From Citricoccus sp. K5 (GTDB lineage Bacteria > Actinomycetota > Actinomycetes > Actinomycetales > Micrococcaceae), in contig NZ_LR732817.1 of assembly GCF_902506195.1 (NCBI RefSeq), positions 451,147 through 515,146 of the forward strand: a stretch of 64,000 nt of DNA, given 5' to 3'. Positions within the stretch are counted from its first letter, which is position 1; each line of letters starts with the position of its first letter. The translations under genes and the position numbers were made by a program. The notes beneath the pieces were generated by a model that worked only from the letters and a program-made list of their open reading frames with translations, did no database searches and was not told where the DNA came from. Positions 23,072 through 42,225 of this stretch are shown piece by piece.

Positions 23072-23145
23072 GCCCCCATAGCCCAATTGGCAGAGGCAGG
23101 AGACTTAAAATCTCTGTGTTGTGGGTTCGAGTCCCACTGGGGGCA
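23072..23145 (+). tRNA. tRNA-Leu (anticodon UAA)
   Basis: 74 bases with a perfect 7-bp acceptor stem (GCCCCCA/TGGGGGC), a short D stem with GG in the loop, an anticodon stem GGAGA/TCTCT (one G-U pair) around CTTAAAA, giving anticodon TAA, and T arm GTGGG-TTCGAGT-CCCAC. Discriminator base is A; the CCA end is not encoded. The variable region is only five bases (GTGTT), whereas bacterial tRNA-Leu normally has a long class II arm. The anticodon still points to leucine UUA/UUG codons. Confidence 0.88.
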
Positions 23146-38941: not shown

Positions 38942-39255
38942 ATCGGTAGGCGTGGCTCGCGCGGGCCGATCCGGCGCTCGCTGCAACGGTCTCTCTCGGT
39001 TCATGCAGAGTTAATCCGCCACCCGGGATTCCTGACGACATTTCCGCGGCCGGAGGCCTACGGTGGTGGTATCAGTCACCGGCGGGAGCGAACGGGCCAC
39101 CTGGTTCCGCATCCGCATCCCGTGGATTGATCGGAAAGGCCAGGCCGTATGCCGTCACTCCAGACAGCACGCAGCGGGGGCCGTTCCGGCCCCGGGCCGG
39201 ACCGTCCCACCCCGCCCTCGATCATCGGGGCGTGCGCCCCGGTCTGGAGTCCACC
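38942..39255. other. 314-base gene-free stretch before the PIN-PhoH gene
   Basis: No convincing ORF, RNA or repeat seen. TACGGT at 39059-39064 could be a -10 for the downstream gene, leaving a leader of nearly 190 bases, but no matching -35 is evident. The downstream frame stays open back to 39127 without conserved sequence. Confidence 0.4.
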
Positions 39256-40617
39256 GTGGAGAATCTGATCGCCGCCCCGGCCACCGTCACCCCGGCCACC
39301 ACGCAGCCTGCCGAGCGGATGAGCGTGGGTGAGAAGTCCTACGTGCTGGACACGTCCGTGCTGTTGTCCGATCCCCGGGCGGTCCTGCGCTTCGCCGAAC
39401 ACGAGGTCATCCTGCCGATCGTGGTCATCTCCGAGCTGGAGAAGAAGAGGGACGACCCGGACCTGGGGTATTACGCCCGAAAGGCACTGCGACTGCTGGA
39501 CGAACTGCGGATCGAGCACGGCACCCTGAATACCCCGATCCCTCTCGGCACGGAGGGCGGCTCTCTGCGGGTGGAACTCAACCACATCTCCGTGGACGTG
39601 CTGCCGCACGGTTTCCGGAGCGCGGACAACGATTCCCGGATCCTCGCCGTCGCCAAGAACTTCGCGGACGAGGGCCGGGACGTCACGGTGGTGTCCAAGG
39701 ACCTGCCGATGCGCGTGAAGGCCTCCGCCATGGGCCTGCAGGCCGATGAGTACCGCAATGAGCTGGTGAAGGACTCCGGCTGGTCCGGCACGGCGGAGGT
39801 CATGGCCACGGAGCAGGAGATCAGTGCCCTGTATGACAACGAGCCGGTGGCCCTGTCGGAGACCGACGGTCTGCCCGTCAACACCGGCCTGGTGATCACC
39901 TCCCCGCGGGGCTCTGCGCTGGGGCGCGTGGACCGGCATGGCAACACCCAGGTGGTGCGCGGGGATCGGGACGTCTTCGGCCTGCACGGGCGGTCCGCTG
40001 AGCAGCGGCTGGCCATCGATATGTTGCTGGACCCCTCCGTCGGGATCGTCTCGCTCGGCGGACGGGCCGGCACCGGCAAGTCCGCCCTGGCCCTGTGCGC
40101 CGGGCTGGAGGCCGTGATGGAACGCCGGGAGCATCGCAAGGTCGTGGTGTTCCGCCCGCTGTACGCCGTCGGTGGCCAGGAACTCGGCTACCTGCCCGGC
40201 TCCGAGAACGAGAAGATGAATCCCTGGGGTCAGGCCGTGTATGACACCCTCGGCGCGCTGGTCTCCACGGAGGTCCTGGATGAGGTGGTGGACCGCGGCA
40301 TGCTCGAGGTCATGCCGCTGACCCATATCCGCGGCCGTTCCCTGCACGATTCCTGGGTGATCGTGGACGAGGCCCAGTCCCTGGAGAAGAACGTCCTGCT
40401 GACGGTGATGAGCCGTATGGGACAGAACTCCAAGATCATCCTCACCCACGACGTCGCCCAGCGGGACAACCTCCGGGTGGGCCGTCATGACGGGATCGCC
40501 GCCGTGGTCGAGACCCTGAAGGGCCAACCGCTGTTCGGCCATGTCACGCTGAACCGCTCGGAGCGCTCGCCGATCGCCGCGCTCGTGACGGAGTTGCTGG
40601 AGGACGCCAGCATCTGA
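39256..40617 (+). CDS. PIN-PhoH protein (PhoH2-like RNase/ATPase)
   Basis: 453-residue fusion of a PIN RNase domain and a PhoH ATPase, as in M. tuberculosis PhoH2 (Rv1095), a sequence-specific RNA helicase and ribonuclease. [25 protein letters not shown] and [12 protein letters not shown] hold the acidic metal ligands. Pho[14 protein letters not shown] (Walker A) near residue 275 and [11 protein letters not shown] (Walker B). GTG 39256 has GGAG six bases upstream; GTG 39231 in the same frame is possible. Confidence 0.93.
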
Positions 40618-40686
40618 GGCGGGTGGCGTCCGGGTCGAAGCCGGGTAGAGCGCCAGTCGACGGCAACTGAAGAAGAGTTAAAGAAA

Positions 40687-40718
40687 CAGGGGCCGCTGCA
40701 CGTGTGCAGCGGCCCCTG
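40687..40718 (-). terminator. Intrinsic terminator with T-tract on the minus strand
   Basis: 15-bp arms 40687-40701 and 40704-40718 pair perfectly, and on the minus strand are followed by TTTCTTTAACTC. On the plus strand no T-run follows. It would end the candidate small RNA or long transcripts from the rhomboid gene, and may also slow the plus-strand phoH2-like mRNA. The rest of 40618-41012 shows no gene. Confidence 0.85.
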
Positions 40719-40874
40719 AGGGTGAATCCGTCCGGGTCCCCGCGGAGGGGGGATGAGGGGACCGGGGATGATCCACCGCAGCCATGGCCCCTTGAAACGG
40801 GATGGAGGCCATGGAGTTTAGAGCGCTTCCACGACGGTTCACGAGTGATGAGTCGGTGTCGCACGGATGGAAGC
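40687..40874 (-). ncRNA. Candidate structured small RNA between phoH2-like gene and rhomboid gene
   Basis: On the minus strand TATGCT (40886-40881) would start transcription at about 40874. The predicted RNA begins with one arm of an 8-bp stem (40868-40875 with 40824-40831), then has a stem CCATGGCC/GGCCATGG (40807-40814 with 40782-40789), a 9-bp stem with one bulge (40757-40765 with 40732-40741) whose loop shows six consecutive C, and ends in a 15-bp terminator followed by TTTCTTTAA. No ORF fits. The length, about 188 bases, stem at the exact predicted 5' end and terminator support an independent RNA; no good -35 is seen, so it is tentative. Confidence 0.5.
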
Positions 40875-41012
40875 GATTCCAGCATACCGACGTTTGACCC
40901 GGTTTCCTACCACTTTCGTGAAAATCACACCATCGACTTCTGGCCAGTCTTGACCGGGACTATCGGGCAGTCTTCTGGCCGCCCTCCGCTGGCGTCCGGG
41001 TAATTGCACCAG

Positions 41013-41660
41013 CTATGGCACCAGCGCATCGTTGCGGCGCTCGCGCAGGTCACGGCGCGCCTGCCGGGTGTCGGCGAATGCCACCACCACACCGGCAGCA
41101 GCGCCAGCGAGGTGCCCCTGCCAGGAGACGCGCGGGTTGATCGGCAGGAAACCCCAGACGATCCCTCCGTAGAGCAGTACCACCACCACGGCGGCCGCGA
41201 TCGCCGTGAACCGCCGGGACAGGATCCCGTAGGTCACCAGGAAGGCCGCATAGCCGTAGACGATGACGGACGCGCCGATGTGGTTGGTCCCCATGCCGCC
41301 GATCAACCATGTGCCGACACCGCCAACGAGCCAGATGCCGGCCGTGATCAGCCACCACTTGCGGGTCAGCCAGGCGATCATGGCCCCCATCACCAGGAAG
41401 GGCAGGGTGTTGGAGAGCAGGTGGCCGAATCCGGAGTGCAGCAGCGGTGCGAACAGGATGCCGGGCAGTCCTGCCGGGTCGAGTGGCTGGATCCCGAACT
41501 GGTTGAGCCGGCCGCCGAGGAACAGGTCGATGATCTCCAGTACCCACATGACCACCACGAGTCCGAGCACGGGCAGGGCGCGCTGGATCCACAGGGGGTA
41601 GGACCGCAGCTGGTCGATGACGTGGCGGCGTGACGAGGGGCGTTTCACGGGTTCGGACAT
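41013..41660 (-). CDS. Rhomboid family intramembrane serine protease
   Basis: 215-residue six-helix protease that cuts transmembrane substrates. Catalytic serine is in HIGASVIVYG (G-x-S) and catalytic histidine in SWQGHLAGAAAG; GFGHLLSNTLPF carries the conserved HxxxN of helix 2, so it should be active. ATG 41660 follows TAGGCT (41672-41667) by six bases, favouring this start over GTG 41666. Divergent from the prepilin peptidase gene with 58 bases between starts. Substrate unknown. Confidence 0.93.
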   Translation of the reverse strand: MSEPVKRPSSRRHVIDQLRSYPLWIQRALPVLGLVVVMWVLEIIDLFLGGRLNQFGIQPLDPAGLPGILFAPLLHSGFGHLLSNTLPFLVMGAMIAWLTRKWWLITAGIWLVGGVGTWLIGGMGTNHIGASVIVYGYAAFLVTYGILSRRFTAIAAAVVVVLLYGGIVWGFLPINPRVSWQGHLAGAAAGVVVAFADTRQARRDLRERRNDALVP

Positions 41661-41718
41661 GTCCACAGCCTAGTGAGCCGAACCCCAGGGTGGGCGTATG
41701 TCGTTCTAGTCTGGGAGG

Positions 41719-42225
41719 ATGCCGACGATCCTGGCCGAGGCGGCCCATGACGGGAACTGGCTGCTGCTGGCAGCCGTCCTGGCGTCCTTGGCCGTCTTCA
41801 GCGTGTGCGCGGTCGTCCTGACCGGCACTGATCTGCGCGAACACCGCCTGCCCAATCGGTGGACTGGGGCCTTGGCCGCCGGGGGCGCCGTCACGCTCGG
41901 GCTGGCCTGCCTCGTGGACGACGCCGGCTGGTCGCGTTTCTGGTCCATGCTCGGCGGAGGCGTGGGGTACCTGGGGCTGATCCTGCTCCTGCACCTGATC
42001 AGCCGCACCGGCATGGGCCTGGGGGACGTCAAGCTGGCCGGCGGCCTCGGGCTCTATGCCGGGTGGCTCGGCTGGGACCATCTCTTCGGGGCCATCGTCC
42101 TGGGCTTCGTGGCCGGGGGAGTGGTGGCCCTGGTCCTGGTGCTGGCCCGGCGGGCCACGGGCTCCACGCATCTGCCCTTCGGCCCGGCGATGTTGCTGGG
42201 CACGGCCGTGGCCCTGCTCTTCTGA
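41719..42225 (+). CDS. A24 prepilin peptidase
   Basis: 168-residue membrane aspartyl protease that trims pre-pilin leader peptides. TGTDLREHRLPN and GMGLGDVKLAGGLG contain the two catalytic aspartates; the second is in the typical G-x-GD context. The N-terminal methylase domain of PilD is absent, as in TadV-like short forms. ATG 41719 follows TAGTCT (41707-41712) by six bases, leaderless. No pilus genes lie in the window, so partners are elsewhere. Confidence 0.92.
   Translation: MPTILAEAAHDGNWLLLAAVLASLAVFSVCAVVLTGTDLREHRLPNRWTGALAAGGAVTLGLACLVDDAGWSRFWSMLGGGVGYLGLILLLHLISRTGMGLGDVKLAGGLGLYAGWLGWDHLFGAIVLGFVAGGVVALVLVLARRATGSTHLPFGPAMLLGTAVALLF

Follow-up and report, generated by a model that had tools for sequence, protein, structure and literature searches.

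The window analyzed here is the whole stretch of 64,000 nucleotides of Citricoccus DNA. Within it, a PhoH2-like gene on the plus strand (39217-40617, PIN_4 and PhoH domains, ORF start provisional) and a rhomboid protease gene on the minus strand (41013-41666) are separated by a gap of 395 bases (40618-41012), as an earlier note on this DNA had described. The closest named record to the PhoH2 protein of the window comes from Citricoccus zhacaiensis (97% identity). The minus strand of the gap contains a candidate RNA (40874-40680) that is predicted to fold into four hairpins. Its fold energy is -93 kcal/mol, whereas 200 dinucleotide-shuffled versions reach -66.8 ± 4.3 kcal/mol and none folds equally well (z = -6.15).

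Ahead of the predicted 5' end are a -35-like hexamer, TAGGAA (40909-40904), and, after a spacing of 17 nt, the -10 hexamer TATGCT (40886-40881), which was already pointed out in the earlier note and is invariant in all eight Citricoccus genomes. Hairpin 1 (40874-40825) begins exactly at the predicted 5' end, again as claimed, 40874 being its first paired base. The two further stems that had been noticed correspond to hairpins 2 and 3. Hairpin 2 (40814-40782), found by fold and alignment, has the almost invariant stem CCAUGGCC/GGCCAUGG and displays loop B, AUCCCGUUU (40803-40795), which is the same in all 19 sequences described below. Hairpin 3 (40777-40721) has a two-tier stem with an internal loop and displays loop A, AUCCCCCCUCC (40754-40744), with the previously reported CCCCCC at 40752-40747. 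The RNA ends in an intrinsic terminator (40718-40680), supported by a terminator scan and by the fold. The terminator and its T-tract, TTTCTTT, agree with the earlier description, but its stem (40718-40687) has 14 pairs by both methods and not 15. The mean unpaired probability is 0.91 in loop B and 1.00 in loop A, compared with 0.38 overall, and the four-hairpin structure reappears in single-sequence folds (six relatives; 19 projections). The invariant loop B, together with the hairpin pairs at other loci reported below, goes beyond what had been noticed before.

DNA matches to the candidate were found in all eight Citricoccus genomes; for one of them (G006) the BLAST match spans query positions 85-221 only. 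We built a covariance model from the eight Citricoccus sequences and ran it on 245 genomes of the family. The model retrieved 11 further strong matches, all in one genus (E from 4e-14 to 3e-19), so that 19 of 245 genomes have a match at E ≤ 1e-13. In the remaining 226, nothing fell below E 3e-4, so that none has a comparable match. We assign the second genus to Micrococcus because the catalase of one of its genomes (G139) is identical across residues 3-504 to PDB 1gwe, the catalase of Micrococcus lysodeikticus. The model search of this genus places the RNA in 11 out of 11 genomes; in G139 its core is at C1:563842-563975.

Across 396 genomes of the order, only the window genome and one Micrococcus genome scored above 37.3 bits. 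Seventeen genomes had a match at E ≤ 0.01, two of these being the known RNA and the 15 others reaching 37.3 bits at most. The alignments of nine distinct places among these weak matches were inspected, and six rest mainly on the GC-rich terminator stem; the remaining ones were set aside on score alone. One weak match in another family of the order (31.7 bits; G517, L139:1501-1617) includes a hairpin, GGCCCCCAUCCCCUAUUCGUGGGGCC, that resembles hairpin 2, and it may be due to chance. We also considered and rejected phoH-linked homologues in other genera. Of 80 phoH loci, four group with Citricoccus, and the other 76 (L019-L094) gave 53 matches at E ≤ 5, the best with 27.1 bits, compared with 74-169 bits for the 19 members.

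The RNA is better conserved than its surroundings. Mean column identity in the Citricoccus alignment is 0.92, 0.90 and 0.93 for hairpin 2, hairpin 3 and the terminator and 0.78 for hairpin 1, compared with 0.67 in the upstream and 0.53 in the downstream flank. Loop A is exactly AUCCCCCCUCC in 15 of the 19 sequences, with seven C in three others and five C in one. Judging from these alignments, the two C-rich loops are the most conserved part of the RNA, while most of the surrounding stems vary.

We counted covariation on an alignment (A6) of 19 rows, 18 of them distinct, that was fitted to the model structure. In A6, 96.3% of the cells are paired and 11 pairs have changed on both sides. Double-change cells number 50, compared with 19.0 in shuffles, and the covariation score is 0.199, compared with 0.106; neither value was reached in any of 500 shuffles. 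When the partners were shifted by 1-3 columns as a control, the score was at most 0.053. The count of further pair types was no higher than in shuffles (295 of 500), and most double changes trace to a single split, that between Citricoccus and Micrococcus. Hairpin 3 and the terminator covary, and hairpin 2 is free of double changes because its stem hardly varies. The covariance search proposed in the earlier note returned matches across Citricoccus and Micrococcus, and their alignment covaries above shuffles.

A sigma-70 scan of both strands of 40200-41300 found no promoter-like sites, because the -35 hexamer (TAGGAA) is poor in the window strain. Taken alone, the promoter of this strain is weak (seven of 12 matches, attained by 40% of shuffles). 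The -35 hexamer reads TAGGCA or TAGTCA in six of the eight Citricoccus genomes and TTGTCA in one, and the -10 hexamer chosen by our script fits TANNNT in 10 of the 11 Micrococcus genomes. Summed over the 19 sequences, the best promoter matches amount to 142, compared with a mean of 115 and a maximum of 126 in 60 shuffles; many single promoters are no better than shuffles, and in a few the script's pick is, by eye, not the most plausible one. The stretch around the -35 hexamer (AAGTGGTAG, 40915-40907, minus strand) is the same in seven of the eight Citricoccus genomes and could be a regulator site. In each of the 19 sequences the 5' segment is predicted to form some hairpin, at most 3 nt from the script's start in 17, and the hairpin 1 sequences of Citricoccus and Micrococcus are unrelated.

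The neighboring genes differ between the two genera. In all eight Citricoccus genomes the RNA is preceded by the rhomboid gene on its own strand, and only in this genus is that gene directly upstream of the RNA. By tblastn, the nearest recognized upstream gene at all 11 Micrococcus loci is a divergent leader peptidase (the match in G202 covers only 51 residues before the contig ends), and the three upstream proteins tested match Pfam Peptidase_A24. Because the upstream gene is divergent, transcription of the RNA in Micrococcus would need a promoter of its own, and read-through from the rhomboid gene cannot make it there. On the downstream side, phoH is convergent, with its stop at most 240 nt from the end of the model match in 17 of 19 genomes; the phoH match of G153 lies some 1 kb off, and G202 showed no phoH in the roughly 1.5 kb that follow, which hold a distant rhomboid instead. 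Overall, the rhomboid gene is an inconstant neighbor and PhoH2 adjoins the RNA in most genomes.

The two loops also occur together elsewhere. Weak second matches of the model in four Citricoccus genomes represent a hairpin pair at another locus, where the C6 loop sits on a different stem and the 3' hairpin has the loop ACCCCGUUCUUG. In the Micrococcus genome G153, two of the three places with loop A turn out to be further pairs: loop A sits on new stems there, and the 3' hairpin loop includes UCCCGUU. G086 and G167 provide two further loci with GAUCCCGUUUCA as 3' hairpin loops. In all, the motif search yielded eight further hairpin pairs at five other loci, in which loops A and B are on unrelated stems and the 3' hairpin loop contains UCCC or CCCC. 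G153 also contains a long inverted repeat (G153:C1:681278-681323, L212) with CCATCCCGTTTCCGTCGGTATGA in its arms, where the loop-B sequence is present but lies in the stem.

The search pattern required loop A and then loop B after 20-50 bases (A-N20-50-B). It gave 12 matches in 11 of the 245 family genomes, eight of them in the 19 genomes of both genera (one in the reversed control) and four in the other 226 genomes (four in the control). A looser A-B pattern gave seven matches in the 19 genomes, compared with none in its control. The stem under loop B is at least 12 bp in all eight pairs, and 1-8 bp in the 84 other matches tested (four from the family and 80 viral). In a simple test, five of the eight pairs have a loop-A stem of 8-11 bp and the other three one of 4-6 bp. 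When 60 bases are folded in isolation, each of the eight hairpins holds loop A unpaired on a stem, although over a longer stretch the copy in G086 folds differently. The 3' hairpins at these loci have a terminator-like position with a weak T-tract (two to five T in the next 10 bases). At the phoH locus loop B comes first, followed by loop A and the terminator; elsewhere the order is A-B. Neither pattern finds an A-B pair in the window genome. In viral contigs, all 80 tested of 95 stretches matching the A-B pattern and all 22 matches to the looser pattern have loop-B stems of at most 8 bp, and the B-A pattern has no matches. Searched by BLAST, the G167 copy has two short matches among phages, both at chance level, and one G153 copy has none among plasmids. 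We infer that the hairpin pairs at these loci are RNAs as well; they may descend from the RNA of the phoH locus or may have converged on its loops.

The second Citricoccus locus looks chromosomal and has, by eye, lipoprotein-like and lyase-like genes. The four Micrococcus copies adjoin genes for integrases, ParA-like proteins or phage-terminase-like proteins. Two related regions of G153 (G153:C1:270600-279100 and 308600-316800; L334, L335, L365, L366) both encode a tyrosine integrase along with a ParA-like ATPase, for which the CbiA match is just above the cut-off in one region and below it in the other (23.0 bits, cut-off 25.4 bits). One of the two also encodes a transglycosylase/M23 protein as well as a mutator transposase. 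Each region has a two-loop hairpin pair of its own, different from the other's but in a similar relative place. In G167 (G167:C1:376500-385000, L364), a Terminase_7-type protein, a Prim-Pol/AAA protein and an integrase fall within about 8 kb. The terminase-like protein matches Pfam Terminase_7 (small subunit), and its best PHROG match is 'minor tail protein', with terminase small subunit second. This compact region, which has the hairpin pair at the end with the terminase-like gene, resembles a phage satellite. The protein near the G086 copy, close to a contig end, matches a PHROG terminase small subunit (6.6e-18), with Pfam Terminase_4 below the cut-off. The Micrococcus hairpin pairs are likely to lie inside mobile elements. 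More tentatively, and with somewhat less than even confidence, we suggest that integrative or satellite-like elements of Micrococcus encode small RNAs imitating the chromosomal two-loop RNA and so plug into, or override, the RNA network of the host. The conserved functional unit would then be the loop pair, with the stems serving as exchangeable scaffolds. If so, the loop pair beside mobile-element genes would represent element-borne mimicry of a host small RNA.

For the RNA of the phoH locus, we consider it on balance probable that it is an independently transcribed, trans-acting small RNA whose two loops pair with G-rich sites in mRNAs and that it belongs to a wider two-loop set. The transcript would be about 190 nt long (148-189 nt are predicted across relatives), with one hairpin at the 5' end, two that display the loops and a terminator of its own. 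Its working parts would be the unpaired, conserved loops A (AUCCCCCCUCC) and B (AUCCCGUUU), which would pair with G-rich sites of target mRNAs, most plausibly ribosome-binding sites, and so lower translation of the targets. The RNA would be the chromosomal, usually phoH-linked member of a set whose members at other loci present this loop pair on unrelated stems, in some cases next to mobile-element genes. Recognition through the loops is suggested by the fact that these unpaired, C-rich loops are fixed while most stems drift. We prefer pairing as the mode of action because it is parsimonious and because B11 and LhrC act likewise. In the published account of B11, two unstructured loops with strings of C pair with ribosome-binding sites and repress (PMC10470900), and for LhrC, one mRNA is described as bound through a UCCC loop and the terminator loop (PMC4132741). 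Our preference is based on the loops and on the RNA of the phoH locus, and does not depend on the 3' hairpins elsewhere being terminators.

Limited searches for targets gave no signal. A perfect complement of loop A occurs in the window genome only opposite the RNA itself. Across six genomes the exact complement occurs at 10 places, eight of them opposite the RNAs and two elsewhere in no such hairpin. At the ribosome-binding-site position before RTG, GGAGGGGG is not enriched in the window genome (71 matches, 67 in the reversed control); over five genomes it has 292 matches, compared with 334 in the control, the count being below control in the other four. GAAACGGGAT occurs at 11 places in five genomes, five of which are the RNA itself; the other six have, by eye, no loop-B hairpin of the same type. 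Complement sites in five element or paralogue regions included nothing convincing by eye. From two Citricoccus genomes we hand-picked 20 candidates each (ATG matches among the matches listed for GGAGGGGG), which gave 10 and eight plausible ORFs and no orthologous pair. If the RNA does act through its loops, it would offer a tractable case in M. luteus of how a C-rich loop can locate particular mRNAs when the genome is rich in GC.

The main rival to loop pairing is a protein-binding or protein-titrating RNA, in which an RNA-binding protein would recognize the AUCCC that opens both loops, leaving the stems free to differ. The near-invariance of stem 2, at odds with the variation of the other stems, is not predicted by loop pairing alone and speaks for this rival, as do the target searches without signal. 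Loop A, however, continues into a CCUCC stretch that resembles the anti-Shine-Dalgarno sequence of the 16S tail, and the two loops diverge after AUCCC. The repeated loop motifs also recall Csr/Rsm RNAs, an analogy that has been drawn for LhrC (PMC4132741). We regard a protein-binding role as unlikely but as deserving real weight.

The other explanations carry far less. If it were not a gene of its own, the element would belong to the rhomboid transcript as its 3' UTR and terminator, or would serve as a terminator where two genes converge. The upstream rhomboid gene on the same strand in Citricoccus, the intrinsic terminator and the negative strict promoter scan would fit, but the divergent gene upstream at all 11 Micrococcus loci, the promoter-like elements above shuffles for the 19 sequences together and the conservation of unpaired loops, which terminators do not need, make this very unlikely. 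Only slightly less improbable is a diverged member of the 6C RNA family (RF01066). The actinobacterial host and the C6 loop point that way, and RF01066 is over its cut-off in none of the eight Citricoccus genomes, but it has no match at E ≤ 5 in 39500-42000, none at its gathering threshold (47 bits) in the window and none at E ≤ 1 in the window genome. Loop B, moreover, has three C and not six, and eight stretches around RF01066 matches (five over the cut-off; 1.8-3.1 kb each) contain neither phoH nor rhomboid genes. Scarcely credible, finally, is an mRNA for a small protein. A 44-codon ORF (MASIPFQGAM...) does start in the window strain at the AUG within CCAUGG of hairpin 2, but this AUG sits in a stem, the alignment contains indels of one and two bases, and among relatives the frame varies from 11 to at least 70 codons with different sequences. 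Coding potential was rejected, as this ORF is conserved neither in frame nor in length.

The locus combines several marks of a small RNA gene: a conserved, covarying structure, an intrinsic terminator and no conserved ORF. The proposal of the earlier note, a structured small RNA with a C-rich loop, is borne out by the covariation, by the presence in 19 genomes of two genera and by the divergent upstream gene in Micrococcus. Neither of the findings that it had named as speaking against such an RNA, a lack of conservation or mere read-through from the rhomboid gene, is what the 19 genomes and that divergent gene indicate. Judging from the compared genomes, the locus seems to be a genuine small RNA gene, apparently not described before, that is common to Citricoccus and Micrococcus.

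No known family had been recognized at this locus before, and the Rfam scan that had been suggested leaves it free of any family near its threshold. In Rfam 15 scans of the window, the locus and eight loci of relatives, the sole match at gathering threshold is a tRNA gene at 23072-23145 of the window; all others were far below threshold (microRNA families, ncS035 and Six3os1_1). RF01066 is over its cut-off in five of 39 relatives searched (L095-L099), Citricoccus being absent among these. In open-licence literature on small RNAs of Micrococcus, Arthrobacter and Citricoccus and on RNAs with C-rich loops, the RNA is absent among the matches listed.

Known RNAs resemble it in part. 6C RNA consists of two hairpins with about six C in each loop. 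We reject identity with it, as RF01066 is unmatched and the loops here are C6 and AUCCCGUUU; an extra 5' hairpin, a separate terminator and further loci with the same loop pair set our RNA apart as well. The likeness to 6C/B11 (RF01066) is that of an actinobacterial small RNA with C-rich loops, as B11 is described (PMC10470900). Ms1, a 6S-like RNA, is likewise a conserved intergenic small RNA of actinobacteria, but it is described as a structural relative of 6S RNA with linkage to a HAD-hydrolase gene (PMC9130861), whereas ours is phoH-linked and made of separate hairpins. Its neighbors are PhoH2, rhomboid and Peptidase_A24 genes and not a HAD-hydrolase, and identity with Ms1 is rejected by this synteny. 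The scr5583 RNA of Streptomyces and its homologues share a C-rich terminal loop and differ, by their description, in having one such loop (PMC3765725). LhrC1-5 of Listeria monocytogenes are multicopy, with UCCC in a loop and in the terminator loop as described (PMC4132741), and UCCC is in two loops here as well. The LhrC copies are, however, described as virtually identical (PMC4132741), whereas the copies here have nothing but the loops in common, on unrelated stems, and no homology was seen; at the phoH locus, loop B also lies outside the terminator loop. By analogy, the RNA most likely acts like 6C/B11 or LhrC and belongs under neither. What is apparently new is a small RNA with C-rich loops whose two-loop signature is common to hairpin pairs on unrelated scaffolds.
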